From Myxococcales bacterium (GTDB taxonomy: Bacteria > Myxococcota_A > Polyangia > Polyangiales > Polyangiaceae), in assembly GCA_016191785.1 (NCBI GenBank), contig JACPVJ010000197.1:62001-126000 (forward strand): a DNA stretch of 64,000 nt, written 5' to 3'. Positions within the stretch are counted from its first letter, which is position 1; each line of letters starts with the position of its first letter. The notes under the pieces were generated by a model. That model saw only the letters and a list, made by a program, of their open reading frames with translations, did not search any database and was not told the origin of the DNA. The position numbers and the translations under genes are program-made. Positions 6,523 through 25,903 of the stretch are shown here, in pieces.

Positions 6523-6960
6523 TCACGCGAGCCCGCGGCGCTTCGCCCAATCCGCGCCGAGCTCGGTGAGCTTCTGGTCGCTCAGCATCCGCTCGCAGAT
6601 CGGGAAGAGGAACCGCTCTTCCTTCTCGAAGTGCTCACGCAACGTGGCAACCAGCCGCAAGAGCACGCCGCGCCCCTCTTCCAGCGTGGTCGAATCGGCC
6701 ACGGCGCCCGCCAGAAGCTCGATCTCCTTGTGATCCGCGCGCATCACGTCGAGCGCGCCGTTGGTCTGACCGCCCTCGATCAGCGCTGGGAAGAGCACCT
6801 CGTGCTCGAGGGCCATGTGGCTGGCCACGGCGCGGGAGAGGACCCGACCGACGGCGAAGATCTCGGTCAAGTTGCCGGCGTCGTCGGCGGCAGCCTCGAC
6901 CTGATCGAACAGGGCATAGGACAGCGCGTGCTCGCCGAGCAGGCCTTCGGTGATCTTCAT
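6523..6960 (-). CDS. Hemerythrin HHE-domain protein
   Basis: A 145-aa all-helical cytoplasmic protein with the di-iron ligand pattern of HHE hemerythrins: His11, His48, a Glu/His pair at 52-53, His77, His110 and Glu114 (in HFEKEERFLFP). Family members bind O2 or NO or act in iron-sulfur repair (YtfE/RIC type, though this one lacks the N-terminal ScdA domain). It begins 88 bp downstream of the FAD oxidase gene on the same strand. That gap holds two FNR-like inverted repeats, which fits a role in oxygen or nitrosative stress next to a nitrate-respiration island. A GAAGGGGC element serves as ribosome-binding site. Confidence 0.85.
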   Translation of the reverse strand: MKITEGLLGEHALSYALFDQVEAAADDAGNLTEIFAVGRVLSRAVASHMALEHEVLFPALIEGGQTNGALDVMRADHKEIELLAGAVADSTTLEEGRGVLLRLVATLREHFEKEERFLFPICERMLSDQKLTELGADWAKRRGLA

Positions 6961-8730: not shown

Positions 8731-10458
8731 GTGTCGAAGATCATGAAGTGGGAACCGGAAGACCCGCAGTTCTGGAAAGAGCAAGGCAGCGGTCTGGCCT
8801 GGCGCACCTGTGGCATCACCACCTTCAGCTTGCTGTTCTCGTTCGCGACGTGGTTCGTGATGAGCGCCGTGGTCGTGCGGCTGCCGGCGGTGGGGTTCAA
8901 GTTCACGCAGATGGAGCTCTTCTGGCTCGCCGCCATTCCGGGCTTCGCGTCGGGCATCTTGCGTTTGATCCATTCGTTCTTCATCCCGGTGCTCGGCACC
9001 CGGCCGGTGATCAGCATCGCGACCATCATCAAGATCATCCCCATGGTCTGGCTGGGCTTCGCGGTCCAGGATCTGAACACCAGCTTCTGGACGTTCATGA
9101 CCATCGGCTTCCTCAGCGGGATGGGCGGCGGAGACTTCTCGTCGTACATGCCGTCGACGTCGATCTTCTTCCCCAAGCGGCTCCAGGGGCTCGCGATGGG
9201 AGTGCAAGCCGGCATCGGCAACTTCGGGGTGAGCGTCGTTCAGTTCGTGACGCCTTGGATCATCGGCTTCGCTGCGTTCGGCGCTGCGGTGGGGGGGCCG
9301 CAGGTCTTCACCAAAGGCGACAACGTGAAGGGCGCCATCGCGGTCACCAAAGAGAGCGGTGTGGTTTCGGACGTGGTGGTCAAGAAGCCCGAGCTGGCGG
9401 ACGCGATCGTCGTCACCAAGGAAGGCAACAAGGTCACCAGTGTCACCTTCAAAGAGACGGCGACCGCGAAGGCCATCAAGGAAGACGTGCAGAAGGACGC
9501 CGCGGGCAAAGCCGTCTCGGTCACGCCGACCCAGGGCCTGAAGGTCGAGGTGACGAAGAACCCGGCCGGCGCCATCACCGACGTGGCGGTCAAGAGCGTG
9601 GTCAAGAAGGGGATGTGGCTGCAGAACGCGGCCTTCTGGTACATCCCGTGTCTGCTCTTGGCGTTCGTGCTCTCCGTGGTGTTCCTGAGGAGCATCGGCA
9701 GCCTGAAGGGGCGAGGCTTCAAGGGGCAGTTCGAGATCCTGTCGAGCAAGAACCGCGCGCGGACCCACACCTGGAACTGCACCATCACGTACATCTGCTC
9801 CTTCGGTTCGTTCTCAGGGTACGCGGCCGCGTTCCCGGTCATGATCAAGACCATCTACGGCGGCTTCGACGGCGGTCCCGATCCGCTGAAGTACGCCTTC
9901 TTGGGCCCGCTGATCGGTGGGCTGGTTCGTGCGCTCACGGGCCCGGTTTGGGACAAGTGGGGCGGCAGCATCGGGATGCAATGGACCACGGTCGGACAGA
10001 TCCTCGGCTGCGGGTACCTGGTCTTCGGCGGCTACCTCACGCCCACCAGCGTCGACCAGTTCTCAGGGTTCCTAGCGGGCATGCTGTGGATCTTCCTGAT
10101 GACCGGCATCAACAACGCCGCGACGTTCCGCCAGTACCCCATCGTCTTCGCGTACTCTCCCGGCAAGGGCGCCCAGATGCTGGGCTGGACCGGCGCATGG
10201 GCGGCCTTTGGTCCGTTCATCTTCACGAGCCTGATCGGTGCCGCGATCAGCGCCTATGGCAGCGCCAAGGCGTTCTTCATCGGAGTGGCGGTGTTCTACG
10301 CCTACTCGGCCGCGATCAACTGGTGGTACTACACCCGCAAGGGCGCCGAGCGGGGTGACTGGGGCAACAAGGGCGGCACCTGGTGGGACAAGCTCTCCGA
10401 CGAGGAGAAGGCAAACATCAGGCGCATCGACCTGGAGGCCTCGGCGGCCGCGCGGTGA
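8731..10458 (+). CDS. NarK-type nitrate/nitrite major facilitator with large soluble insertion
   Basis: A 575-aa inner-membrane protein of the MFS nitrate/nitrite porter type. Residues 25-185 hold about six membrane segments with the substrate-site arginine region GILRLIHSF (Arg78) and a Gly-rich GIGNFGVSVVQ segment like the nitrate signature. Residues about 190-295 are a hydrophilic, Val/Lys/Thr-rich insertion with beta-strand character, unusual for the family (normally about 450 aa). The remaining helices follow from 297. The likely role is nitrate import or nitrate/nitrite exchange for the reductase encoded downstream. The GTG at 8731 has GGTGAAAGG upstream; an ATG at 8743 is the alternative. 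Its stop overlaps the next gene by 4 bp. Confidence 0.85.
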   Translation: MSKIMKWEPEDPQFWKEQGSGLAWRTCGITTFSLLFSFATWFVMSAVVVRLPAVGFKFTQMELFWLAAIPGFASGILRLIHSFFIPVLGTRPVISIATIIKIIPMVWLGFAVQDLNTSFWTFMTIGFLSGMGGGDFSSYMPSTSIFFPKRLQGLAMGVQAGIGNFGVSVVQFVTPWIIGFAAFGAAVGGPQVFTKGDNVKGAIAVTKESGVVSDVVVKKPELADAIVVTKEGNKVTSVTFKETATAKAIKEDVQKDAAGKAVSVTPTQGLKVEVTKNPAGAITDVAVKSVVKKGMWLQNAAFWYIPCLLLAFVLSVVFLRSIGSLKGRGFKGQFEILSSKNRARTHTWNCTITYICSFGSFSGYAAAFPVMIKTIYGGFDGGPDPLKYAFLGPLIGGLVRALTGPVWDKWGGSIGMQWTTVGQILGCGYLVFGGYLTPTSVDQFSGFLAGMLWIFLMTGINNAATFRQYPIVFAYSPGKGAQMLGWTGAWAAFGPFIFTSLIGAAISAYGSAKAFFIGVAVFYAYSAAINWWYYTRKGAERGDWGNKGGTWWDKLSDEEKANIRRIDLEASAAAR

Positions 10459-10667
10459 TCGAGCGGCTCGACCTGTTCGTCACGCTCCTGGGCATCGCCT
10501 ACGGGGGGGTGTTGGTCTGGGCGTTCTTCGTGAGCAACGCGTTCACCGAGGCGATGCGGATCGACGCCCTCTTGCTTCCCAGGCCTTCGGCCTCGACGCG
10601 CCCGCTGAACCTGGCGGCCGGCATCCTGGTGGCCGGCTACTCTGCGTACTCGTTGATCGCAGGCTGA
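10455..10667 (+). CDS. Small two-helix membrane protein in the nitrate operon
   Basis: A 70-aa protein with a GTG start in a GTGA overlap with the NarK stop, implying translational coupling. It has two hydrophobic segments (about residues 8-28 and 52-68) joined by a short loop containing MRIDALLLPRPSAST. No known family is recognised. Its place between two nitrate carriers suggests a small accessory or stabilising subunit of a carrier, but that is inference. Codon use is like the flanking genes. Confidence 0.7.
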   Translation: MIERLDLFVTLLGIAYGGVLVWAFFVSNAFTEAMRIDALLLPRPSASTRPLNLAAGILVAGYSAYSLIAG

Positions 10668-10772
10668 GCCGATCACGTTTCCGCTCCATCCAGGGCGGGT
10701 CTCTGCTAGGAAGCGCGCAAGGATTGCCGCGATGGTTCGCCTTTGGCGTCTCGTGGCGCTCCCGTTGCGCGA

Positions 10773-12260
10773 ATGACCGAACGCCGTCAAGCCTACATCG
10801 CTCTCAGCATGAGCACGCTGGCGTTCACCGTCTGCTTTGCAGCGTGGATGCTGAACGGCGTGCTGGTCACCTTCCTGTCCGACAACGGGGTGTTCCGTTG
10901 GACCGGCAGCCAGATGGGTACGCTGATCGGCATCCCGGTGCTGACCGGGTCGGTGCTCCGCCTGCCCATCGGCGTGCTGACCGATCGGTACGGCGGGCGG
11001 CCGGTGTTCACCGGCCTCTTGCTGGTGGCGGCGGCGCCGATGTTCTTCCTCGGCTCGGTCAATGGGTATTGGAGCTTCCTCTTGTGCAGCCTGGGGTTCG
11101 GCTCGATCGGCGCGGGCTTCGCGGTGGGCATCGCCTTCACCTCGGTCTGGTTCCCGAAGCACCAGCAGGGCACGGCGATGGGCATCTTCGGCGCCGGGAA
11201 CGCGGGCGCGGCAGTCACCACCATGGGTGCCCCCTCGCTCTTGCGCTGGCTGACCCGCGGCGGCACCGAGCTCGATGCCTGGCGCATGCTGCCCAAGATG
11301 TACGCCGCTGTGCTCGTCCTGATGGCGGTGGTGTTCTACCTCACGACCACCAACCGCCTGCCCGAGGGGGCGGTGGGCAAGCGCCTGGGCGACATGCTCT
11401 CGCCGCTCAAGAGCACGCGAGTCTGGCGCTTCGGCCTGTACTACTTCCTGGTGTTCGGCGGCTTCGTGGCTCTCGCGCAGTGGCTGGTGCCCTACTACAC
11501 CAACGTGTACTCGATGTCGCTGGTCACGGCCGGGCTGATGACCTCGATCTTCTCGGGCCCCTCGGGCGTGATCCGCGCCCTCGGCGGCTGGCTCAGCGAC
11601 CGCTTCGGCGCCCGCGCCGTCACCTTCTGGGTGCTGGTGATCACCGCGACCTGCTGCGCGCTCTTGTTCTTCCCCAAGATGGACGTCGAGTCGCCCGGGC
11701 GCGGGGTGATGGCAACCCGCGCGGGAACCGTCACAGCCGTCAGCACCGATTCGGTGCGCGTGGGTGAGACGGACTACCCGCTGAAGGTGATGCCGCAGTC
11801 CGCCAAGCGCGTGTTCAGCGACAGCGAGCTGGTGGTGATGCCGGTCATCCACTCGTGGCACGAGCCAGCGGTCAAGGCGGGTGACACCGTGGTCAAGCGC
11901 CAGCTTCTGGCGCGCGGCGTGACGCACATCTACTTCCAGGCCAACGTCTGGATCTTCACGGTGCTGGTGTTCGTGATCGGCATCTCGATGGGCATCGGCA
12001 AGGCATCGGTGTATCGCTACATCGCCGATTTCTTCCCCAAGAACGTGGGCGTGGTGGGCGGCACGGTGGGGGTGATCGGCGGCCTCGGCGGCTTCTTCTG
12101 CCCGGTGTTGTTCGGGTACTTGCTGGACACCATCGGCCTGTGGACCACCACCTGGATGGCCCTCTTCGCGACCGGAGTGGTGTGCATCTTGTGGCTGGCG
12201 GTCGCGGTCCGCGTGCGGGCGGCGAAGGGCGGCGAGGCCCAGGACCCAGCCGGGAACTGA
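10773..12260 (+). CDS. NarK-type nitrate/nitrite major facilitator with beta-rich insertion
   Basis: A 495-aa MFS protein. TM1 holds FAAWMLNGV, a substrate-site arginine lies in GSVLRLPIGVLTDRYGGRP (about residues 59-77), and GIFGAGNAGAAVTT (about 138-151) is a clear nitrate-signature motif. Arg268 in SGVIRALGGWLSDRFG fits the second conserved arginine. Between helices at about 305-390 is an 85-residue hydrophilic insertion with short strands and the segment KAGDTVVKRQLLARG, which resembles a barrel-sandwich (lipoyl-like) half motif without a modifiable lysine context. It is likely a nitrate/nitrite carrier. The upstream in-frame ATG at 10743 would add a non-hydrophobic tail, so 10773 is preferred. 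Confidence 0.85.
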   Translation: MTERRQAYIALSMSTLAFTVCFAAWMLNGVLVTFLSDNGVFRWTGSQMGTLIGIPVLTGSVLRLPIGVLTDRYGGRPVFTGLLLVAAAPMFFLGSVNGYWSFLLCSLGFGSIGAGFAVGIAFTSVWFPKHQQGTAMGIFGAGNAGAAVTTMGAPSLLRWLTRGGTELDAWRMLPKMYAAVLVLMAVVFYLTTTNRLPEGAVGKRLGDMLSPLKSTRVWRFGLYYFLVFGGFVALAQWLVPYYTNVYSMSLVTAGLMTSIFSGPSGVIRALGGWLSDRFGARAVTFWVLVITATCCALLFFPKMDVESPGRGVMATRAGTVTAVSTDSVRVGETDYPLKVMPQSAKRVFSDSELVVMPVIHSWHEPAVKAGDTVVKRQLLARGVTHIYFQANVWIFTVLVFVIGISMGIGKASVYRYIADFFPKNVGVVGGTVGVIGGLGGFFCPVLFGYLLDTIGLWTTTWMALFATGVVCILWLAVAVRVRAAKGGEAQDPAGN

Positions 12261-12303: not shown

Positions 12304-14073
12304 ATGCCCGCCCGCGCGCCCGTGGCCACGGCCGGAAGGACACTACGCGACGCGATCTCTCGCTGGGGGCTCGCACCGCTGTCGGGCTCCGAGCCGAGCG
12401 ACGCCGTCTTCCGATGGCTGGTGGGTCTGCGCTGGATCGCCGTCTTCGGCGTCGCCCTGGTGCTGGGCGTGACCGGTCCCCTCCTCGGCCTGCTTCCGGC
12501 GGGGTCGAGATCCGCGCTCTGGACGGTGCTCGCGGGGCTGGCGTTCTACAACACCGCACTCACCCTCCTCGGCCAGAGCTCGGGGGTGCCTTGGCTGACG
12601 CACTTCGCGGGCCAGATCGTGGCCGACTGCCTGGCGCTCGCCGCCTTCGTGCATTTTTCGGGCGGTGTCGAGAACCCGTTCCTGTCGCTCTTCGTGCTCC
12701 ACATCATCAACGCCAACATCGTGCTCCGACCCCGACCTGCATCGGCGCTCTCGCTGGTTGCGGTCGCGCTCGCCATGGCGGTCGTCATCGGGGAAGGGTC
12801 GGGCTGGCTCCCCCACTACTGTTTGCGCGAGGCCGAGGCCGACTGCATCGCCAGGAGCCTCAGCCCCTGGTCGCTGGGGGTGCTCGGGGGTCTCGGGCTG
12901 ATGCTGGGGTCGAGCTCGTACATCGCGCGCTACCTGACGGCGCGACTGCACGACAGCGAGGAGCGCCTGGCGACCACCGTCGACGACCTCTCGCTCGAGA
13001 AAGAGCGGCTGGCCGAGACGCGGGCGACCATCGAGCTCGAGCGCTCGCGCCTGCAGGCGATCATCGACTGCATGGGCGACGCGGTCACCTTCTCGGATCC
13101 CGAGGGTCGATTGCTCTTGAGCAACGACCGCGCCAAAGAGCTCAGGCGGGGCGGCGACGACCCGTTCGGGCCCGAGTCGCTGACCGCGGTGTTCGACTCG
13201 GTCGCCCAGGGGCGCGAGGCGGTGGCACAGCCCGCCTTCCAGCGGGGCGGGCGAAGCTACGAAGCGACCTGCGCCGTCGTGCGCGACCATCACGAGGCTC
13301 CGCTCGGCCTGGTTACCGTCACCCGCGACATCACGGACCGCCTGGCGCTCGAGCGTCACCTGATGCACGACGAGCGCATGGCGGTAGTGGGCAAGATCGC
13401 CGCGGCGGTCGCCCACGAGATCAACAACCCGATCGGCGTGGTCTCGCTCTATGCGCAGCATGCGCTGGCCAAGCTGCCTCCGGGCAGCCCGATCGAGAAG
13501 CACCTCGAGACGATCCGGCGCAACGCCGAGAGCTGCCGCAAGATCACCGGAGACCTCTTGCAGCTGGCGCGCCCACGCACTCCCGAGCACGCCCTGGTCG
13601 ACCTGCGCTTGCTCTGCAAGGACGTCGCCCAATCGGTCGAGCCGGTGGCCGCCAAGTACGGCGTGGTGGTGGCGGACGAGAGCCGCGCCAACGCCGCGCC
13701 GCTCTGGGCCGAAGGCGACGCGGGCCAGCTGCGCCAGGCGGTGCTCAACCTGGCGCTGAACGCCATCGAGGCCTCGCAAGAGGGCGACCGGGTCTCGCTT
13801 CGCGCCTACGAGACCCAGGACCGCGACGTGACCGCGCGGGTGGTCGAGGTCAGCGACACCGGCAGCGGCATCGAGCCCGACCAGCTGGCGCAGATCTTCC
13901 AGCCCTTTTTCACCACCAAGCCCGCGGGGACGGGCCTCGGCCTCGCGGTCGCGGACAACATCGTGAAGGGTCACAACGGCCGCATGACCGTGGACAGCGA
14001 AGAGAATCGCGGCACCACCTTCCGCATCCTCTTGCCGAGCGCTCCTGCCCGCGCCATGGAAGGCGGAGCGTGA
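12304..14073 (+). CDS. RegB-like membrane sensor histidine kinase
   Basis: A 589-aa kinase. Residues 35-215 form a six-helix membrane domain opening with RWLVGLRWIAVFG, as in RegB/PrrB. Between helices lies GGVENPF (120-126), an exact match to the GGxxNPF heptapeptide that binds ubiquinone in RegB. A coiled coil (215-250) and a PAS-like domain (about 252-345) follow. The kinase core has the H-box AVAHEINNP (His371), then N, G1 (DTGSGIEPD), F (FFTTK) and G2 (GTGLGLAV) boxes. The four-bp GTGA overlap with the next gene makes it the obvious partner of that regulator. I infer that it senses the redox state of the quinone pool. The RegB redox-active cysteine is not present next to its H-box. Confidence 0.88.
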   Translation: MPARAPVATAGRTLRDAISRWGLAPLSGSEPSDAVFRWLVGLRWIAVFGVALVLGVTGPLLGLLPAGSRSALWTVLAGLAFYNTALTLLGQSSGVPWLTHFAGQIVADCLALAAFVHFSGGVENPFLSLFVLHIINANIVLRPRPASALSLVAVALAMAVVIGEGSGWLPHYCLREAEADCIARSLSPWSLGVLGGLGLMLGSSSYIARYLTARLHDSEERLATTVDDLSLEKERLAETRATIELERSRLQAIIDCMGDAVTFSDPEGRLLLSNDRAKELRRGGDDPFGPESLTAVFDSVAQGREAVAQPAFQRGGRSYEATCAVVRDHHEAPLGLVTVTRDITDRLALERHLMHDERMAVVGKIAAAVAHEINNPIGVVSLYAQHALAKLPPGSPIEKHLETIRRNAESCRKITGDLLQLARPRTPEHALVDLRLLCKDVAQSVEPVAAKYGVVVADESRANAAPLWAEGDAGQLRQAVLNLALNAIEASQEGDRVSLRAYETQDRDVTARVVEVSDTGSGIEPDQLAQIFQPFFTTKPAGTGLGLAVADNIVKGHNGRMTVDSEENRGTTFRILLPSAPARAMEGGA

Positions 14074-16244
14074 CCGAAACCCGGGTCCTGGTCGTCGACG
14101 ACAACCGCGACATGGCGGACGGCATCGCCATGCTCCTCGGCGAGCTCCCGCTCAGCGTCGAGGTGGCCTATTCGGCAGGCGAGGCCCTGACCGAGCTGCA
14201 GCACCACGAGTACGCGCTGGTCTTGAGCGACATCCGTATGCCGTACATGAACGGGGTCGAGCTCTTGGCCGAGATCCGGCAGCGCTGGCCACGCACACGG
14301 GTCGTCCTGATCACCGCCTTCGGCAGCATCGACTCGGCGGTCGAGGCGATGAAAGAGGGCGCGAGCGACTATCTGACCAAGCCCTTCGACAACGCCGCCT
14401 TGGTCGAGGTGGTCGAGCGGAACCTGGCGGCGGCCAAGACCGATGACGAGTTCGACGTGCCCGCGGTGGTGGCGGCGGTCGCCGCCCGCCTGTCTCCGGA
14501 CGATCTGTTCGGCAGCTTGACGGATGCGCTCGAGACGCTTCGGGGCGCGGCGGGCGCTGACGACTGCGAGCTTTTCTTGACCGAGCCCGACGGCAAGGAC
14601 GTCTTGCTCTCGGTGTGGGTCGGCCTCGACGGTGAGGCGCTGATCGAGCGTACGCGCTTCGAGCCGGGCTCGGGGTACCCCGGTATCGTGACGGCCACCG
14701 GAGCCTCGCTCTTCAAGCAGGGCGACCTGGCGGACGACCCGCGCTACCTCCGCCATCGGGTGCTCGGCGCAGGGATCAAGTCCTATGCGTGCGCGCCCCT
14801 CAGCGAGCCTCGCGGTTCCTTCGGCTCGATCCACATGCTCTCGCGCCGGGCCGATTTCCCTGCGCACCGGGCGGTCGAGCTCCTCGAACAGGCCGCGGTG
14901 CCCATCGCCAGCGCGGTGCGCGCGGGGCTCTCGGCCCTGCGCCAGTCCATCGACGAGGCCTGCGCGCCCCACGAGGCCGGCTCGCCGGCGCAGCTCAGGG
15001 AGTTGCTCGAGTGCATTCGCAAGAGCGCCGACGCCAGCTATGGCAGCATCGCGCTCGTCGATCCCGAGACCGGCCTGCCTTCGCGAGTGGTGTCGAGCGG
15101 CCCCGCCACGCTGCTCTGCGCCCACGCCGAGGCGGGGGCCTGGGCCGAGTGCCCGTCGGTGCTCGACGGCCACGGGTTCGCGGCGGATCGCGGGCGGCGC
15201 GCGTGGCCGGTCCCTTGTCGGCGCGGCGTCCCGCGACGCGTGGTCAGCCCCTGCTGCCTGCCGCTGATGGAAAACGGCCGCTTTCACGGGCTGGTCACCC
15301 TCGATCTGGGTCGCAAGGGCGAGGCCAACGCCAGCGCCGGCCTGGTGCCGCTGCTGGTGATGTCCCAGCAGGCGGCCATCCACCTGGCCAGCAACCACCC
15401 GGGGCTGAAGCTGGACCCGAAGAGCGACGGTCTGGTCGCCTCGGGGCCGCCCGCGCCAGAGCTCGAGCTCCGCTGCCTCGGCCCGTTCGAGGTGGTGCAG
15501 CGCGGCACCCTGGTGGCTGCGGAGCAGTTCCCCCGCAGCAAGGCCCTCGGCTTGCTCAAGCTCCTGGCGCTCAAGGCCGGCACGCCGCTGAGCAAAGACT
15601 ACTTGATCGACCAGCTCTGGCCGGACGCCGACCCGACCAGCGGCGCCAACCGCCTGCACGGGGTGGTGCACGCGCTCCGGTCGGTGATCGAGCCGCACCG
15701 CGCCGAGCGCAACTGGACGTACGTGCGCAATCGCGGCGAGCTCTACTACCTCGATCTGGAAGCGCCGCTCGAGATCGATCTCTTGCGGTATCGCAAGCTC
15801 TCGAGCCAGGGCATGCGAGCGATCCACGACCCGACCCCCGAAGCGGTCGACGCGCTCGAGCGCGCCGTGGCCCTGTACCGCGGCGAGCTGTTCGGCGACG
15901 AGCCCTACGCCGAGTGGTGCGAGCTCGAACGCCGAGAGCTCGCAGAGCAACAAGTGACGTTGCTCGAACGGTTGGCCGGGGTCCACGCCGAGCGGGGCAA
16001 CGGCGAGCGTGCGCTCGAGCTCATGCGCCGTGCGGTGCGCGTGGCGCCGTATCGGGAAGACTTGCTGATCGCGCTGCTCGACCTCCTGGTCCACCTGGGC
16101 CGGCCCGGCGAAGCGCGCACGCAGTACGACGAGTTCCGCAAGATCCTCGAGCGCGAGCTCGGGGCCCAGCCCTCGCGGGAGCTCGAAGAGTTCCAGCGCC
16201 GGGCCTTCCGCGTCTCGAGCCGCCCTCCGGCCGCGCTGCGCTGA
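14070..16244 (+). CDS. Response regulator with GAF-like region and SARP-type (wHTH-BTAD) output
   Basis: A 724-aa protein. The receiver domain (1-120) has Asp10/Asp11, phospho-acceptor Asp54 (SDIRMP), Thr82 and Lys104. Residues about 125-445 look like two GAF-type domains separated by a helix. From about 463 an OmpR-type winged helix begins (LRCLGPFEV, LLKLLALKAG), followed by a helical BTAD/TPR domain (about 565-715; ALYRGELFGDEPY, LERELGAQPSRELEEFQ). The wHTH-BTAD pair defines SARP activators, which bind 11-bp-spaced direct heptamers. Such sites lie before three nitrate units in this window. It starts at GTG 14070, overlapping the kinase stop. SARP outputs fused to a receiver are uncommon outside actinobacteria. 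Confidence 0.88.
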   Translation: MTETRVLVVDDNRDMADGIAMLLGELPLSVEVAYSAGEALTELQHHEYALVLSDIRMPYMNGVELLAEIRQRWPRTRVVLITAFGSIDSAVEAMKEGASDYLTKPFDNAALVEVVERNLAAAKTDDEFDVPAVVAAVAARLSPDDLFGSLTDALETLRGAAGADDCELFLTEPDGKDVLLSVWVGLDGEALIERTRFEPGSGYPGIVTATGASLFKQGDLADDPRYLRHRVLGAGIKSYACAPLSEPRGSFGSIHMLSRRADFPAHRAVELLEQAAVPIASAVRAGLSALRQSIDEACAPHEAGSPAQLRELLECIRKSADASYGSIALVDPETGLPSRVVSSGPATLLCAHAEAGAWAECPSVLDGHGFAADRGRRAWPVPCRRGVPRRVVSPCCLPLMENGRFHGLVTLDLGRKGEANASAGLVPLLVMSQQAAIHLASNHPGLKLDPKSDGLVASGPPAPELELRCLGPFEVVQRGTLVAAEQFPRSKALGLLKLLALKAGTPLSKDYLIDQLWPDADPTSGANRLHGVVHALRSVIEPHRAERNWTYVRNRGELYYLDLEAPLEIDLLRYRKLSSQGMRAIHDPTPEAVDALERAVALYRGELFGDEPYAEWCELERRELAEQQVTLLERLAGVHAERGNGERALELMRRAVRVAPYREDLLIALLDLLVHLGRPGEARTQYDEFRKILERELGAQPSRELEEFQRRAFRVSSRPPAALR

Positions 16245-16332: not shown

Positions 16333-16364
16333 GTAAGCCCCGTGTAAGTGCCGGACGGTATGCC
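16333..16364 (+). promoter_or_regulatory. SARP-type operator-promoter B (cytochrome c-narGHJI)
   Basis: Heptamers GTAAGCC (16333) and GTAAGTG (16344) are 11 bp apart; 8 bp later lies TATGCC (16359-16364) as the -10 element. The inferred transcript start is near 16371, about 46 nt before the ATG at 16417, and the leader includes a GGAGG ribosome-binding site at 16405-16409. The spacing matches sites A and C base for base. Confidence 0.65.
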
Positions 16365-16416
16365 CCTCGGAGCCGCGGCGAAACCTGCAGAGTCGCCGCT
16401 CTACGGAGGCCTGACG

Positions 16417-17256
16417 ATGAATCTGAAAACGCTCTGGCGCACGCTCGTGGCGGGCGCCGCTCTGGCCCTGGTTTTCTCGCTCGACATGGGCTCGGCCCAG
16501 GCTGCCGGCGGCGACCAGAAGTTCAACAGCGTGTGCGCCGGCTGCCACAGCATCGGCGGCGGCAAGCGCGTCGGCCCCGATCTCAAGGGCGTGACCGATC
16601 GCCGCAGCGAAGCCTGGCTGCTCAAGTTCATCAAGTCGTCGCAAGCGATGATCAACGCGGGCGACCCCGACGCGGTGAAGGTCTTCAACGAGTACAACAA
16701 GACGCCCATGCCCGACATGGCGCAGTTCTCGGACGCCGACATCAAAGACATCCTCGAGTACATCAAGGGCGGCGGCGGCGGTCCGGCCCCCGCGATGGCA
16801 CCCGCGACGCCGGCAGACATCAAGCTCGGCGGAGAGCTCTTCCAGGGCATCGTTCGCCTGAAGAACGGCGGCGCAGCCTGCAACTCGTGCCACCACGTGA
16901 CCAACGACGCGGTGATCGGCGGCGGCGTGCTGGCCAAGGACCTGACCGAGGTGTTCACTCGCGTCGGCGGAACCGGCGTCGGGGCGATCCTCGGCAAGCC
17001 GCCGTTCCCCGTGATGGAGGCCGCCTACAAAGACGCGCCCATCACCCCGGAAGAGAGCCGCGCTCTCGTCGGCTTCTTGCAAGACGTGGACAAGAAGCGC
17101 GCGATGCAGACCCCGAAAGACTACGGCAACCAGCTGGTCCTGGGCGGCGTCGGCATGTTCGCCGTGCTCATGGGCCTGTACTCGTTCGCCTGGCGCCGCC
17201 GCAAGCCGGGCCCGGTCAACCAAGCCATTTTCGACCGCCAGGTGAAGTCCCAGTAG
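16417..17256 (+). CDS. Membrane-anchored diheme cytochrome c of the nar operon
   Basis: A 279-aa protein with a cleavable-looking signal (to about AQA, residue 29), a first heme site CAGCH (40-44), a second heme site CNSCH (155-159), candidate axial Met residues in KTPMPDM (98 and 101), and a C-terminal membrane helix (about 238-258) followed by a basic tail. It is therefore a periplasmic dicytochrome anchored at its C-terminus. It is the first gene of the nar operon, 56 bp before narG. Such cytochromes precede nitrate reductase genes in some bacteria and may move electrons between the quinone/cytochrome pool and NarI or another oxidoreductase; the exact partner is not shown. The ATG at 16417 has GGAGG 7 bp upstream; the longer ORF from 16348 lacks a signal. 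Confidence 0.9.
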   Translation: MNLKTLWRTLVAGAALALVFSLDMGSAQAAGGDQKFNSVCAGCHSIGGGKRVGPDLKGVTDRRSEAWLLKFIKSSQAMINAGDPDAVKVFNEYNKTPMPDMAQFSDADIKDILEYIKGGGGGPAPAMAPATPADIKLGGELFQGIVRLKNGGAACNSCHHVTNDAVIGGGVLAKDLTEVFTRVGGTGVGAILGKPPFPVMEAAYKDAPITPEESRALVGFLQDVDKKRAMQTPKDYGNQLVLGGVGMFAVLMGLYSFAWRRRKPGPVNQAIFDRQVKSQ

Positions 17257-17312: not shown

Positions 17313-20300
17313 ATGAGCTGGATCCAGGACATCATCTCGCCCCAAACGCGCAAGTGGGAAGAGTTCTATCGCAACCGCTTTCAGCACGATCGCATCGTCC
17401 GCAGCACGCACGGCGTGAACTGCACCGGGGGCTGCTCTTGGCAGATCCACGTGAAAGACGGCATCGTGGTGTGGGAGACGCAGCAGCTCGACTACCCGCT
17501 GCTCGACGACCAGCTGCCGCCGTACGAGCCCCGCGGCTGCCAGCGCGGCATCTCGTACTCGTGGTACCTGTACAGCCCGCTGCGCATCAAGTACCCGCTG
17601 ATCCGCGGCGCCCTGCTCGACGCGTTCGAGCGCGAGAAGCGCGCCGCCGACGGCGACCCGCTGAAGGCGTGGGAGAACCTGCAGAAGGACGCGAAGAAGC
17701 GCGAGACCTACCAGAAGGCCCGCGGCAAGGGCGGCTACCGCCGGGCCACCTGGGACACGGTGCTCGAGCTGATGGCCGCGGCCAACATCCACACCGCCAA
17801 GAAGTACGGTCCCGACCGCGTGTTCGGCTTCTCGCCGATCCCCGCAATGAGCATGCTCAGCTACGCGGCAGGCGGCCGCTTCTTGCAGCTCTTCGGCGGC
17901 GCCAACCTCAGCTTCTACGACTGGTACTGCGACCTTCCGACCGCGTTCCCCGAGATCTGGGGCGAGCAGACCGACGTGTGCGAGAGCGCCGATTGGTACA
18001 ACGCCAAGATGATCGCGGACATGGGCGCGTGCCTGAACATGACGCGCACGCCCGACTGCCACTTCTTCGCCGAGTCGCGCCACAACGGCACCAAGGCCGT
18101 GGTCTTCTCGCCGGACTTCAGCCAGGTCTGCAAGTACGCCGACCAGTGGGTGCCGCTCCACGCCGGCAGCGACGGCGCCTTCTGGATGGCCGTGTCTCAC
18201 GTCATCTTGAAAGAGTTCCACCACGACACGCAGACGCCGTACTTCATCGAGTACTGCAAGCAGTACACCGACAGCCCGTTCCTGGTGAAGCTCGAGAAAG
18301 AGGGCGACCACTACGTGCCCGGTCGCCTGCTTCGCGCCAACGAGGTCGCCAAGTACAAGGACATCGAGAACGGCGACTGGCAGTTCCTCAACATCGACGA
18401 GAAGTCGAACGAGCTGGTGGTTCCCAAGGGGACCATGGGCTACCGCTGGGCGAAGAGCGCCACCGGCAAGTGGAACATGAAGTTCGAGAACGGGGTCGAC
18501 GACAAGCCCTACGACCCGATCTTGACCTTGCTCGGCAACCGCGACGAGACCCTGCCCACCGAGTTCGTGGAGTACGGCCTGGACAAGAAGGCAGTCCGCA
18601 ACGTCCCGGTGCGCTACATCGAGACCACCTCGGGCAAGGTGGCCGTCACCACCGTGTACGACCTGATCATGGCCCAGTACGGCGTGAGCCGCGGCCTGAC
18701 CGGCGACTACCCGAAAGACTACACCGACAAGGACGCCGCCTACACCCCGGCCTGGCAAGAGATCTTCACCGGCGTCGACTCGAAGACCGTCCTGCAGTTC
18801 GCTCGCGAGTGGGCCCACACCGCCGCGACGACCAAGGGCAAGTGCATGATCATCATCGGCGCGGGTATCAATCACTGGTACCACGCCAACCTGATGTACC
18901 GCTCGGGTGCGATGGCGCTGATGCTGTCGGGCTGCGTCGGTCGCAACGGCGGTGGTCTGAACCACTACGTCGGTCAAGAGAAGCTGGCGCCGGTGGACTC
19001 GTGGGCGTGCATCGCCTTCGCCAAGGACCACATCGCCGCCAGCCGCCTGCAGCAGGCGCCGCTCTGGCACTACATAAACACCTGCCAGTACCGCTACGAC
19101 GGGCACTATGCCAAGTACAACGCGGTCCCGAAGAACGACTGGACCAAGCTGCACACGGCGGACACCATCTTCCGCGCGGTGCGCATGGGCTGGATGCCGT
19201 TCTACCCGCAGTTCGCGCAGAACCCGCTCGACCTGGCGCGCGAGGCCCAAGAGAAGGGCGGCGCGAAGACCGACGACGACATCAAGCAGTACGTGCTCGA
19301 GAAGCTGAAGAGCAAGGAGCTCGCGTACTCGATCAGCGACCCCGACGCCCCCGAGAACCACCCGCGCGTCTGGTACATCTGGCGCGGCAACGCCATCACC
19401 GGCAGCATGAAGGGCCACGAATACGCCTTCAAGCACTACCTCGGGACGCACCACAACTCGATCGCCAAGGACTCGACCGATCACCCGGAAGAGGTGAAAT
19501 GGCACGAGGTCGCCCCGGTCGGGAAGATGGATCTGATCGTCGACCTGAACTTCCGCATGGACTCGTCGGCGCTCTACTCGGACATCGTGCTGCCCGCCGC
19601 GTCTTGGTACGAGAAGGCGGACATGAACAGCACCGACCTGCACTCGTTCATCCACCCGCTGTCGCAGGCGGTGGCGCCGGTGTGGGAGTCGAAGTCGGAC
19701 TGGGAGATCTTCAAGGCGCTGGCCAAGGCCACGGCCGACCTGGCCAAGAAGAAGATGCCCGGAAAGATCAAAGACGTGGTCGCGACGCCGCTGTCCCACG
19801 ACAGCGTCGACGAGATCACCCAGCCCACGGTCAAGGACTGGTACCTGGCCGAGTGCGAGGCGGTCCCCGGCAAGACGATGCACAAGATCAGCGTCGTCGA
19901 GCGCGACTACACCCGCCTCTACGAGGACTTCATCAGCTTCGGCGAGCTGGTGAAGAAGAGCGGCCTCGGCGGCCACGGCAACCACTACATGTGCGAGGAC
20001 GCCTACGACGAGATGGTGGCTTCGAACCACTTCCCGAAGGAGGTCATCGACGGCAAGACGCTGCCCTCGCTGCGCGAGGACGTGATGGCCGCCAACGTGC
20101 TGCTCCACATGTCGACGCTGACGAACGGCAAGCTGAACGTTCGCGCCTACGAGAACATGGAGAAGAAGACGGGCCTCAAGCTCGCAGACCTGGGTGAGGG
20201 CAGCAAAGACGTGCACCTCACCTACGAGGACCTGCAGGCCCAGCCGCGGCGCTACAACACGTCGCCCCTGTGGAGCGGCCTGATGAACAACGGCCGCGCC

Positions 20301-20936
20301 TACGCCCCGTACACCTACAACTACGACAAGCTCGTGCCCTGGCGCACGCTCACCGGCCGGCAGCACTTCTACCTCGATCAGGAGCTCTACATCGCCTACG
20401 GCGAGCACCTGCCGACGTACAAGCCCTCGCCCAAGCCCGAGGCGTACGGCGATCTGAAAGAGACGATGAAGACCGGCGAGTCCATCGCCCTGAACTGTCT
20501 CACCCCCCACGGCAAGTGGCACATCCACTCGACCTACATGGAAAACCACCGCATGCTCACGCTCTCGCGTGGCTGCGAGCCGTGCTGGATGAGCGAGGCC
20601 GACGCCGAAGCATTGGGCATCCAGGACAACGACTGGGTCGAGGTCTACAACGACCATGGCGTGTACTGCACGCGCGCCAGCGTCAGCTCACGCATCCCCA
20701 AGGGCGTGTGCATCGTGTACCACGTGCCCGAGCGCACCGTGGGCATCCCCAAGTCGCAGGTGCGTGGCAACAAGCGCGCCGGCGGCCACAACAGCTTCAC
20801 CCGCGTCCACCTCAAGCCGAACTACCTGAACGGCGGCTACGGTCAGTTCTCCTATCACTTCAACTATTGGGGCCCGATCGCCCCGAACCGCGACACCCAC
20901 GTCTTCGTCAAGAAGATGACGACGGTAATCTTCTGA
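17313..20936 (+). CDS. narG: Respiratory nitrate reductase, alpha subunit
   Basis: A 1207-aa molybdo-bis-MGD subunit that reduces nitrate to nitrite. The FS0 cluster ligands His33, Cys37, Cys41 and Cys76 keep the E. coli spacing (His49, Cys53, Cys57, Cys92 minus 16). Asp206 in YDWYCDLP corresponds to the molybdenum ligand Asp222. There is no twin-arginine signal, so the active site should face the cytoplasm, which explains the need for nitrate carriers nearby. It lies in a narG-narH-narJ-narI order with short gaps and presumably is transcribed from promoter B with the cytochrome. Confidence 0.98.
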
Positions 20937-20958: not shown

Positions 20959-22509
20959 ATGGATATCAGAGCTCAAGTCTCGATGGTCTTTCACCTCGAC
21001 AAGTGCATCGGGTGTCACACCTGTTCCATCGCCTGCAAGAACATCTGGACCGACCGCAAAGGCGTCGAGTACCAGTGGTGGAACAACGTCGAAACCAAGC
21101 CGGGCACCGGTTACCCCGGCAAGTGGGAAGACCAGGACATCTACAAGGGTGGCTGGGAGCGCGGCGGCGACGGGAAGATCCACCTCAAGGGTGCGGGCAA
21201 GGGCAAGGGCCTGGCCAACATCTTCCACAACCCCTACCTGCCCTCGGTCGAGGACTATTACGAGCCCTTCACCTACAACTACCTGAACCTGATCGAGGCG
21301 CCGCCCGGCGACGATCAGCCCACCGCACGTCCGGTCTCGCTCATCACGGGCGAGCCGATGGACGTGCAGATGGGGCCGAACTGGGACGACGATCTCAGCG
21401 GCACGCCGGACTACGCTCGCAACGATCCGAACCTGAAGAAGCTGAGCCCGGCCGAGCAGGAAGCCATGTTCCAGCTCGAGCGCATGGCCTTCTTCTACCT
21501 GCCGCGTATCTGCAACCACTGCCTGAATCCGGGCTGCGTGGCGTCGTGCCCGTCGGGCGCGATCTACAAGCGCGGTGAGGACGGCGTCGTCCTGATCAAC
21601 CAGGAAGTGTGCCGTGCGTGGCGCATGTGCGTGACGGCCTGTCCGTACAAGAAGTCGTATTACAACTGGCACACCGGCAAGAGCGAGAAGTGCATCCTGT
21701 GCTACCCGCGCATGGAGGCGGGCTACGCCCCGGCGTGCATGCACTCGTGCGTGGGCCGCATCCGCTACCTGGGCGTGATGCTGTACGACGCCGACAAGAT
21801 CGAGAAGACCGCCAGCCTGCCCGAGAACGAGCTGGTCAACGGCCACCTCGACATCATCCAAGATCCCTTCGACCCCGAGGTGATCGAGGCGGCGAAGAAG
21901 AACGGCGTCCCCGACTCGACGATCAAGGCGGCGCAGATGTCGCCGACCTACAAGTTCGTCAAGGAGTGGGGCATGGCCCTGCCGCTCCACGCCGAGTTCC
22001 GGACGCTGCCGATGCTGTTCTACGTACCGCCGCTGCTCCCGGTGATGGCCTCCGTCACCGAGACCGACGGCGCCCAGAAGTCGAAGCTGAACCCCATCGC
22101 CAAGACCTGGACCGACAACTGGCTCTACGACACCAGCACGGAAGAGCTCTGGGGCACCATCGAGCAGTCGCGCTTCCCGCTCAAATACATGGCCAGCATG
22201 TTCACCGCCGGTGACGAGAAGGCCATGGCCGAGCGGCTCAAGAAGCTGATGGCCGTGCGCATCTACCGCCGCTGGAAGACGGTCGGCGACATCGACGAGG
22301 CGAAGGTCAACCAGGTGCTCAAGGACACCAAGCTGACCCACGAGAGCGCCGAGGCCATCTACTACTTGACCTCGCTCGCCAAGTTCAACGACCGCTTCGT
22401 CGTCCCGCCGGCCCACCGCGAGCAGGCCATCGAGATGCTCGAGTTCACGGGTGACGTGAAGGGCTCCACCGGCTTCGGCTTCCGCCAGAAGCCAGAGCGA
22501 GGCATGTGA
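20959..22509 (+). CDS. narH: Respiratory nitrate reductase, beta (iron-sulfur) subunit
   Basis: A 516-aa electron-transfer subunit. The first cluster set Cys16, Cys19, Cys22 and Cys26 is at the same positions as in E. coli NarH. Further sets appear in CNHCLNPGCVASCP, in CRAWRMCVTACPY (Trp replacing a cysteine, as in the 3Fe-4S cluster of NarH) and in CILCYPRMEAGYAPACMHSC. It carries electrons from the NarI hemes to NarG. The start has a GGAGAAAA-type ribosome-binding site, and the gene ends 1 bp before narJ. Confidence 0.98.
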   Translation: MDIRAQVSMVFHLDKCIGCHTCSIACKNIWTDRKGVEYQWWNNVETKPGTGYPGKWEDQDIYKGGWERGGDGKIHLKGAGKGKGLANIFHNPYLPSVEDYYEPFTYNYLNLIEAPPGDDQPTARPVSLITGEPMDVQMGPNWDDDLSGTPDYARNDPNLKKLSPAEQEAMFQLERMAFFYLPRICNHCLNPGCVASCPSGAIYKRGEDGVVLINQEVCRAWRMCVTACPYKKSYYNWHTGKSEKCILCYPRMEAGYAPACMHSCVGRIRYLGVMLYDADKIEKTASLPENELVNGHLDIIQDPFDPEVIEAAKKNGVPDSTIKAAQMSPTYKFVKEWGMALPLHAEFRTLPMLFYVPPLLPVMASVTETDGAQKSKLNPIAKTWTDNWLYDTSTEELWGTIEQSRFPLKYMASMFTAGDEKAMAERLKKLMAVRIYRRWKTVGDIDEAKVNQVLKDTKLTHESAEAIYYLTSLAKFNDRFVVPPAHREQAIEMLEFTGDVKGSTGFGFRQKPERGM

Positions 22510-22510
22510 G

Positions 22511-23203
22511 ATGGCCCGAAACCTCGAGCTCTATGCCCGCCTGGCGGGCGCCTTCGAAGCTCCGGGCGCCGATTTCGTCGCCGAGGTCCGCCGCATCGCG
22601 GCGGATCTCCGCGGCGATCACCCGTCGGCGGCCGACTCCCTCGAGCGCTTCGCGGCCCTCCTCCCTGACGACGCAGACGCCCGCGCCGAGCTCTTCGTGC
22701 GCACCTTCGACATCCAGGCCATCACCACGCTGGACGTCGGGTACGTGCTGTTCGGCGAGGACTACAAACGCGGTGCGCTCTTGGCCGGGCTCAGCAACGA
22801 GCACACCAAGGCCAAGAACGACTGCGGGGCCGAGCTGGCCGATCACCTGCCCAACGTGCTGCGCCTCTTGCCCAAGCTGGGTGACGGCGAAGTTCGCGAC
22901 GAGCTGGTGAGCGTGGTCCTCGGCCCGACCGTCCGCGAGATGCTGCGCGAGTTCGAGCCCGGGCGCATCGCGAAGAAGGAAGAGATCTACCGGAAGCACC
23001 ACAAGACCATCATCGAGCACGCGGAAGACATGGCGCTCCGGACGGCCTATCAGCACGTCATCACGGCGCTCTACGAGATGCTGCGCGCCGACTTCAACCT
23101 GAAGGTCAGCCTGCCCCTCGAGCAGGCCGACACGTTCGAGAAGTCCATCGACACCGAGATGGGCATGGAATCCTGCGGGTCGTCTTGCGGCCCCAGCCTG
23201 TGA
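22511..23203 (+). CDS. narJ: Nitrate reductase assembly chaperone NarJ
   Basis: A 230-aa helical chaperone of the TorD/NarJ type needed for molybdenum-cofactor and FS0 insertion into NarG and for membrane attachment of NarGH; it is not part of the final enzyme. The family feature is FVRTFDIQAITTLDVGYVLF (about residues 62-81) followed by LPNVLRLLPKL. The C-terminal GSSCGPSL is Cys-containing. Position between narH and narI is diagnostic. The start follows the narH stop by 1 bp, suggesting coupling. Confidence 0.95.
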   Translation: MARNLELYARLAGAFEAPGADFVAEVRRIAADLRGDHPSAADSLERFAALLPDDADARAELFVRTFDIQAITTLDVGYVLFGEDYKRGALLAGLSNEHTKAKNDCGAELADHLPNVLRLLPKLGDGEVRDELVSVVLGPTVREMLREFEPGRIAKKEEIYRKHHKTIIEHAEDMALRTAYQHVITALYEMLRADFNLKVSLPLEQADTFEKSIDTEMGMESCGSSCGPSL

Positions 23204-23216
23204 TGTGAGGCACGAC

Positions 23217-23951
23217 ATGAATGTGACTCTGCCGAACCTGTTCTTCTTCGTAGGGCTCCCCTACATCGCCATCGTCATCTTCCTGGTGGGCACCATCCAG
23301 CGCTACCGGAACACGGGCTTCAAGGTCTCGTCGCTGTCTTCACAGTTCCTCGAGGGCAAGAAGCTGTTCTGGGCATCGGTGCCGTTCCACTGGGGCATCC
23401 TGGTGGTGTTCTTCGGCCACCTGATCGCGTTCTTGATCCCGAGCGGCGTCCTGGCCTGGAACGCCCAGCCGGTGCGACTGCTGATCTTGCAGATCACGGC
23501 CTGGGCCTTCGGCCTCTCGGTGCTGGTGGGTCTGCTCGGGCTGCTCGCTCGTCGGCTCACCAACCCGCGCGTGAAGATGGTCACGACCCCGATGGACGTG
23601 TTCATCGAGCTGATGATCTTGGTCCAGACGGTGCTCGGTCTGTACATCGGCTACGCGCACCGCTGGGGCGCCTCGTGGTTCGCCGCCGACCTCTCGCCCT
23701 ACCTCTGGTCGCTGTTCAAGCTCGATCCGCAGATCGCGGCGGTGAGCGCCATGCCGCTGGTCATCCAGCTGCACATCATCAACGCCTTCCTGATCTTCGC
23801 CATCTTCCCCTTCACCCGCCTGGTGCACATCCTGGTGGCCCCGCTCCACTACATCAGCCGCCCGTACCAGCGCGTGATGTGGAACTGGGATCGCACCGCG
23901 ATCCGCGACCCGCGCACGCCCTGGAGCGAGGCGCGCCCGCGCAACAACTGA
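23217..23951 (+). CDS. narI: Respiratory nitrate reductase, gamma (diheme b) subunit
   Basis: A 244-aa five-helix membrane protein that oxidises quinol and passes electrons to NarH. The heme b ligands His58 and His68, and His186 and His204, keep the E. coli spacings (56/66 and 187/205). The ATG at 23217 is preferred over the GTG at 23205 because GAGG lies 7 bp before it and MNVTLPNLFFFVGLPYIA begins the usual N-terminus. It is the last gene of the operon; a strong terminator follows. Confidence 0.97.
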   Translation: MNVTLPNLFFFVGLPYIAIVIFLVGTIQRYRNTGFKVSSLSSQFLEGKKLFWASVPFHWGILVVFFGHLIAFLIPSGVLAWNAQPVRLLILQITAWAFGLSVLVGLLGLLARRLTNPRVKMVTTPMDVFIELMILVQTVLGLYIGYAHRWGASWFAADLSPYLWSLFKLDPQIAAVSAMPLVIQLHIINAFLIFAIFPFTRLVHILVAPLHYISRPYQRVMWNWDRTAIRDPRTPWSEARPRNN

Positions 23952-24193: not shown

Positions 24194-25903
24194 ATGCGCA
24201 TCAAGGAGTTCCTCAAGTCTGGCCACTGGCCGACGCTCTTGGCAGCGTTTCTCTACTTCGATTTCTGCTTCGCCATCTGGGTGCTGAACGGCGCCATGGC
24301 GCCCTTCATCAGTGAAGAGTTCAAGCTCTCGCCGGCGCAGAAGGGCTTCATGATCTCGGTGCCGATCATGGCCGGCGCGCTGATGCGCTTCCCGCTGGGC
24401 GTGCTCGCGCAGTACATCGGGCGCAAGCGCGCAGCGATGGTCGAGATGGGGCTGATCATCGTGGCGATGTGCTACGGCTACTTCGTCGTCTCGACCTACA
24501 GCCACGTGCTCAACATGGGCGTGCTGCTCGGGATCGCCGGCGCGAGCTTCGGCGTGGCGCTGTCGCTCGGCTCGGGGTGGTTTCCGGCAAAGTACAAGGG
24601 GCTGGCGATGGGGATCGCCGGCGCGGGCAACAGCGGCACCGTGCTCGCGGTGCTGTTCGCTCCGCCCCTGGCCCAAGCCTACGGCTGGAAGACGGTCTAC
24701 GGCTTCGGCGCGCTGTTCATGCTCTTCCCGATGGCGGTGATGCTCTTCGCGGCCAAAGAGCCGCCGGACATCGAGAAACAGAGCCTGAAGGAGCACGTGA
24801 AGTGCTTGTGGGAGAAGGACGGCTGGATCTTCAACCTGATCTACATCGTGACCTTCGGCGGCTTCATCGGCCTCGCCAACTTCTTGCCCACCTTCTTCCA
24901 CGACCAGTTCGGCGTGACCAAGGTGCAGGCTGGGCAGCTGACCATGCTGGCCGCGCTGATGGGCAGCGGCATCCGCGTGGTCGGCGGCGCCATCTCGGAT
25001 CGCTGGGGGGGCATCAACACCCTGACCGGCGTCTTCGTGGTCGTGATCGGCGGCATGCTGGTCACCGGCGCCCAGTCCACGGCGACCGGGGCGACCATTC
25101 TGTTCATGTTCTGTTTCGCGGCGCTGGGCGCGGGCAACGGCGCGCTGTTCCAGCTGGTTCCGCTGCGCTGGCCCCTGACCACGGCGGTAGCCGGCAGCAT
25201 GATCGGCGAGATCGGTGCGCTCGGCGGAGCATTCATCCCCAACGCCATGGGTCTGTCGAAGCAGTACACCGGATCGTTCATGTACGGGTTCATCGCCTTC
25301 TCGGCGCTGGCTGCCGTCGCGTTCGTGGTGCTGCGTGTTTCGCAGGCCCGGTGGACGCGCACCTGGGTCGACAAGGGCGGGCGGGCGCGAGCCAAACCCC
25401 TGGACCAAGAACTGGTGGTCCCGGCGCTGGTTCGGAGCCCGGTGCGGGCCGGCCTGAACGGCAGCGGATACACCAGCGTGGTCTACCCGGTCGGCGCCGG
25501 GGAGCTGGCCGAGAAGGCCGCCGCAGTGGCGGCGGGCATCACCAAGATGTCCGGCGCGACGCTCGTGCTGGTCTACGTGGAAGACCAGTGGGGCCAGGTC
25601 GGCACCGTCGGCGCGAGCTCGGACGAGTGGGAGGAAATCCGGAAGAACTGGATGAAAGAGGGTGAAGCGTTGCTGGCCCGCGAGGCCCAGCGGCTGAGGG
25701 ACCTCGGCGTCGAGAACGTCGAGACCGAGCTCCGGCAGGGCCGCGTGGCCGATGAGGTCGTGGCGGTCGCAGACGAGCGCAAGTCCGAGCTGATCGTGCT
25801 GGCCAGCCACCAGGCCTCCCCTCTAGGCCGCTTGCTGATGGGCAGCCGGACGTTCGAGATCTTTCAGCGGGCGAGCTGCCCCATCCTGCGCGTGGTCCGA
25901 TAG
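24194..25903 (+). CDS. NarK-type nitrate/nitrite carrier fused to a UspA domain
   Basis: A 569-aa fusion. Residues 1-405 are a 12-helix MFS nitrate/nitrite carrier: FAIWVLNGAMAPF in TM1, GALMRFPLGVLAQYIGRK (substrate-site Arg and loop motif), GIAGAGNSGTVLA (nitrate signature) and SGIRVVGGAISDRWGG with the second Arg. Residues about 420-569 form a universal stress protein domain with the nucleotide-binding signature SPLGRLLMGS and end ASCPILRVV, as ATP-binding UspA proteins do. The cytoplasmic domain may gate transport by ATP or energy state; this is inference. The gene has its own SARP-type promoter and a terminator upstream. Confidence 0.93.
   Translation: MRIKEFLKSGHWPTLLAAFLYFDFCFAIWVLNGAMAPFISEEFKLSPAQKGFMISVPIMAGALMRFPLGVLAQYIGRKRAAMVEMGLIIVAMCYGYFVVSTYSHVLNMGVLLGIAGASFGVALSLGSGWFPAKYKGLAMGIAGAGNSGTVLAVLFAPPLAQAYGWKTVYGFGALFMLFPMAVMLFAAKEPPDIEKQSLKEHVKCLWEKDGWIFNLIYIVTFGGFIGLANFLPTFFHDQFGVTKVQAGQLTMLAALMGSGIRVVGGAISDRWGGINTLTGVFVVVIGGMLVTGAQSTATGATILFMFCFAALGAGNGALFQLVPLRWPLTTAVAGSMIGEIGALGGAFIPNAMGLSKQYTGSFMYGFIAFSALAAVAFVVLRVSQARWTRTWVDKGGRARAKPLDQELVVPALVRSPVRAGLNGSGYTSVVYPVGAGELAEKAAAVAAGITKMSGATLVLVYVEDQWGQVGTVGASSDEWEEIRKNWMKEGEALLAREAQRLRDLGVENVETELRQGRVADEVVAVADERKSELIVLASHQASPLGRLLMGSRTFEIFQRASCPILRVVR

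Follow-up and report, generated by a model that had tools for sequence, protein, structure and literature searches.

A membrane-bound sensor kinase and the response regulator encoded next to it very probably form a pair dedicated to the control of a nitrate respiration (nar) operon in the window, i.e. the whole stretch of 64,000 nucleotides from a Myxococcales bacterium that was analysed here. The input to this kinase is reasonably likely to be redox state or anoxia. The full reading, for which we estimate a probability of roughly 0.5, is that the kinase senses redox state or anoxia, likeliest via menaquinone at a loop with the motif GGxxNPF, and, together with its partner, is dedicated to the control of a narCGHJI operon of the Thermus type in Polyangia-like Myxococcota.

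The kinase ORF (12304-14073, + strand) opens at ATG and codes for 589 amino acids. Its identification as a histidine kinase in the preliminary description, which was made from the DNA letters, agrees with the ORF and with Pfam, which finds HisKA and HATPase_c; NCBIfam and AlphaFold2 were also used for the assignment. The order of domains is a six-helix membrane domain of the RegB/PilS-like type, a linker, a PAS-like domain, HisKA with the phospho-accepting residue H371, and HATPase_c. PAS is a sub-threshold Pfam match, as is 6TM_PilS (residues 101-155), which spans the motif. The membrane domain extends over approximately residues 36-214 (12409-12945, +), as judged by NCBIfam, AlphaFold2 and ortholog alignment. 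Six helices are seen in the AlphaFold2 model based on six orthologs (mean pLDDT a modest 67), and helices 3 and 4 flank the motif; a Foldseek search with the membrane model gave no match below E = 1.3.

The translation bears out the motif GGVENPF at residues 120-126 (12661-12681, +) of the membrane domain, and orthologs and AlphaFold2 agree. Because six helices are predicted and the kinase domain is cytoplasmic, the TM3-TM4 loop that carries the motif is predicted to lie on the periplasmic side; a cytoplasmic loop had been named as the finding that would count against a RegB-like role. The RegB motif has reportedly been placed in a periplasmic loop as well (by Swem et al. in 2006, a study to which PMC8191878 and PMC10525716 refer). 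Five distinct full-length orthologs are 94, 66, 57, 54 and 49% identical to the window kinase; including the window copy, GG[VIL][ED]NPF is kept in 6/6, with G, G, N, P and F invariant. Of 18,950 NCBIfam models, just two match the membrane fragment (residues 31-229) when it is used alone, and these belong to the RegB family: NF033792 (ActS/PrrB/RegB, E 2e-10) and NF045988 (RegB, E 7.7e-5). The suggested comparison of the membrane domain with RegB/PrrB has therefore revealed homology, and since the isolated fragment finds these models, chance does not account for the motif. On sequence grounds, this domain and the sensor domain of RegB/ActS are truly, if distantly, related.

The partner of the kinase is a response regulator of 724 amino acids (14070-16244, +), in which Pfam and homology distinguish a receiver, a GAF domain, a second GAF-like domain, a winged helix and a BTAD (SARP) domain; this is the SARP regulator that had been expected. 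GC3-based gene calling placed a reverse-strand ORF over the gene, and homology settled the forward reading. The N-terminal receiver scores 102 bits in Pfam, and the second GAF-like stretch alone gave no Pfam match. The GAF-GAF model has a mean pLDDT of 77, and a structure search with it found generic GAF domains only, and no iron-sulfur GAF, among the matches listed.

Without its receiver, the regulator shows approximately 35% identity to Thermus GAF-BTAD proteins over 55% of the query, and 29% identity to a Deinococcus protein over 92% of the query. On the plasmid pTTJL1801, the gene for the Thermus relative adjoins a CRP-family gene and is divergent from narC-narG-narH-narJ-narI, which is the position of dnrS; the genes for the Deinococcus relatives adjoin a molybdopterin oxidoreductase and nitrate transporters. 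As these alignments indicate, the post-receiver part of the regulator is related to Thermus DnrS. DnrS is a GAF and BTAD protein, proposed to be an oxygen sensor of unknown mechanism (PMC5748679, PMC6282519, PMC7694296). It is needed for nar transcription (PMC5748679, PMC7694296), and an oxygen-sensitive conformation has been published for it (PMC5748679). A literature search found no paper in which a SARP protein controls nar in Myxococcota.

The second GAF-like domain of the regulator harbours a cluster of cysteines (C350, C361, C383, C395 and C396; 15117-15257, +) that alignment shows to be invariant in six regulators, and all five are also found in the regulator of genome G033. DnrS and a Deinococcus protein match the four-cysteine pattern C-x(4-10)-C-x(16-21)-C-x(9-12)-C, with the third cysteine in a different alignment column from that of the window regulator. 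Such conservation suggests that the cluster is a candidate metal or thiol redox site.

Downstream of the regulator follow genes for a NarC-like c-type cytochrome (16348-17256, +; 35% identity to Thermus NarC over 251 amino acids), for NarG, the alpha subunit of respiratory nitrate reductase (17313-20936, +; TIGR01580 at 1431 bits, over the cut-off), and for NarH, NarJ and NarI (20959-23951, +; assigned by position and by homology to the neighbours of the relatives). NarG, NarH and NarI are 59, 58 and 43% identical to the Thermus proteins. Upstream of the kinase, family matches identify two NarK-type nitrate/nitrite transporters with a short ORF between them (8731-12260, +). The MFS fold of both transporters (8731-10458 and 10743-12260) apparently has an insertion of ~90-100 residues that forms a soluble stretch. 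Just downstream of narI, a gene (24194-25903) codes for an MFS transporter that ends in a universal stress protein domain fused to its C-terminus. A hemerythrin-domain protein (6523-6960) adjoins the nitrate island; in Deinococcus and Thermus, too, hemerythrin genes occur close to those for DnrS-like proteins.

The full-length regulator adjoins nar genes in all lineages in which it was detected. Next after it come narC-narG in the window, L005, L009, G055 and G033; in L007, kinase and regulator share a stretch with narI/narK, and in L008 with narHJI/narK. In G033 the genes are split between two loci (G033:C17, L006, and G033:C52, L206), the kinase being on a separate contig from the regulator and nar genes. 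This kinase gene follows genes for a MoaA-like (molybdenum cofactor) protein and a MOSC-domain protein, which were named from sequence.

The cysteines of the kinase also bear on its input. The phospho-site of RegB is H225. C411 (codon 13534-13536, +) is located at H371+40, which by alignment is the column of the RegB redox-box cysteine, Cys-265 (PMC8191878). The preliminary description had the RegB redox cysteine missing; instead, C411 is present in 7/7 orthologs, and when RegB-like kinases, one of them from Azospirillum and encoded beside a cyo operon, are aligned with the window kinase, it falls in the RC column common to all of them. In a background sample of generic HisKA kinases that is small and biased, 3/21 have C in the same column. 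C256 in the PAS domain and C438 are likewise invariant in 7/7. Among the full-length orthologs, C109 (TM3) and C173 are invariant and C181 occurs in 5/6; the latter two lie in the TM5-TM6 loop, predicted to be periplasmic from the ortholog alignment (12820-12846, +). With C411 present, the kinase does not have to rely mainly on quinone binding; that it would do so had been argued from the supposed lack of this cysteine.

Ubiquinone had been put forward as the ligand, and this part of the proposal fares less well. The genome contains the MenD family, over its cut-off, which indicates the classical menaquinone route; there was no match to COQ7 in this 95% complete assembly, COQ7 not being the sole possible ubiquinone hydroxylase. 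The futalosine route to menaquinone was considered and rejected, as the MqnA/D families had no match in the same 95% complete assembly and classical MenD was found instead. The host thus appears to make menaquinone and not ubiquinone, which is unlikely to be present; because MenD is present and COQ7 was not detected, any quinone ligand of the kinase is most likely menaquinone. A quinone input to the kinase is plausible. The view of quinone at GGxxNPF as the principal input is tentative, and we give it somewhat less than even odds.

In the proposed mechanism, the kinase would sense the respiratory redox state or anoxia, with the GGxxNPF loop of the six-helix RegB/PilS-like domain as the most likely point of contact with the menaquinone pool. 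A thiol check like that in RegB may come in addition from C411, which lies in the dimerisation helix. The kinase would then phosphorylate the receiver of the DnrS-like GAF-GAF-BTAD activator, whose conserved GAF2 cysteine cluster may provide an oxygen or redox test of its own, so that nar transcription would need two consistent signals. An elaborated form of this scheme is rather speculative and probably does not hold in full: a two-key switch, in which a DnrS-type sensor with a cysteine-ligated GAF2 cofactor has gained a receiver and answers to a kinase of the RegB/PilS superfamily that reads menaquinone, the same four cysteines being the oxygen sensor of Thermus DnrS.

The relationship to RegB raises the question of whether the kinase might simply be an ortholog of RegB/PrrB/ActS whose output has changed. 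The homologous membrane domain and the cysteine at H+40 would fit, and yet the whole kinase scores 98.2 bits against NF033792, for which the cut-off is 350 bits. All orthologs have the H-box HEINNP, which is neither HELGTP nor a near variant; there is a PAS-like domain; and the partner is a REC-GAF-GAF-BTAD (SARP-type) protein, not a RegA-type response regulator. Moreover, the same genome encodes a second, RegB-like kinase (L074; G000:C99:26703-27920) with 240.7 bits to the RegB family, the motif GGPTNPF, the H-box HELASP and the RC cysteine. In a tree of membrane domains, the six window-type kinases form one clade (support 1.0), and their nearest neighbours are L097, L099 and L111 (joint support 0.87), whose adjoining genes match the window regulator in the receiver region only. 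The RegB-like kinases, L074 among them, are on another branch. Orthology was rejected on score, H-box, tree branch and the separate RegB-like kinase, and we consider it very improbable. A membrane-domain profile found relatives in 143/379 sampled Myxococcota genomes. GGxxNPF is present in 63/98 distinct relatives, a proportion biased by the drawing of the set by similarity to the query, and most others have a close variant such as GGxxSPL. Kinases, with H-boxes of several types, make up most of the scanned relatives, and the majority of these relatives match 6TM_PilS (PF25323); the window kinase reaches 19.8-20.4 bits, below the curated cut-off of 27 bits that several homologous kinases exceed. 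Given these widespread relatives and the separate branch of the RegB-like kinase from the same genome, GGxxNPF is a mark of the fold family, not of RegB membership. The likeness to the quinone-binding motif of RegB thus stands with regard to motif, loop and domain homology, and falls short in that the motif is not specific for quinones: it is common across a broad six-helix family with many outputs, and so does not by itself specify them.

This breadth lends some weight to a different reading of the six-helix domain, in which its signal is not quinone but, for instance, nitrate or nitrite, some other small molecule or the state of the membrane, and GGxxNPF is a structural turn on which the entire 6TM_PilS/RegB fold depends. 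Two members of PF25323 illustrate the range: GrtK is reported to be an ammonia sensor (PMC12918730), and PilS controls pilin expression (PMC6058289). The NCBIfam matches of the window kinase are to RegB-type models only, though, and the linked genes are respiratory. The RegB motif itself is reportedly backed by quinone cross-linking and mutation data, and on balance we regard a non-quinone signal as rather unlikely. Alternatively, the signal could be read in the cytoplasm, by PAS or by C256/C411, leaving the membrane domain mainly as an anchor. The seventh ortholog, from another species of the same genus (G055, an assembly in five contigs), speaks for this. In this kinase (G055:C2:3187021-3188199; L044, L184), TM1 is fused in frame to TM6, so that TM2-TM5 and the motif are absent, while the PAS and kinase domains with C256 and C411, the regulator and the downstream nar genes are retained, which shows that, in at least one lineage, the motif is dispensable for the retention of the kinase/regulator/nar system. 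The invariance of C256, C411 and C438 points the same way. Against this, the six-helix domain is complete in six other lineages and has invariant residues in its loop and helices, which an anchor would not require, and a purely cytoplasmic input is doubtful. Upstream of the truncated kinase gene, a membrane protein that looks to be of the TehA/SLAC1 type takes the place of NarK.

Efforts at an in vitro study of DnrS failed because no active protein was obtained (PMC5748679). The four cysteines common to the Thermus, Deinococcus and Myxococcota regulators provide a concrete, mutable candidate for oxygen sensing by DnrS, and expression may be less difficult with its homologues from myxobacteria. 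The G055 kinase, which naturally lacks the putative quinone loop, offers a direct test of the role of GGxxNPF outside RegB. GGxxNPF by itself should be treated with caution, as it is no proof of quinone sensing.

Among known systems, RegB/PrrB/ActS share with the window kinase the six-helix membrane domain, the position of GGxxNPF between TM3 and TM4 and the cysteine at H+40, and differ in H-box, partner, clade and score, in the absence of the extra PAS-like domain, and in that the window host appears to make menaquinone. Denitrification is under RegAB control in other organisms (PMC8191878). The 6TM_PilS family (PilS, GrtK and relatives) has the same membrane domain superfamily and a matching motif region; the window kinase lies under the curated cut-off of this family, and its output and gene context are unlike. 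With NarX/NarQ-NarL, which are nitrate two-component systems, the window pair can be likened as a membrane kinase and a response regulator that control nar, although sensor and DNA-binding domains are unlike those of the window pair. Thermus thermophilus DnrS has the same GAF-GAF-BTAD architecture, four-cysteine pattern and site beside narCGHJI. No counterpart of its CRP-type companion DnrT was seen beside the regulator within the window. DnrS stands alone without a receiver, whereas the myxobacterial regulator has an N-terminal receiver and a partner kinase.
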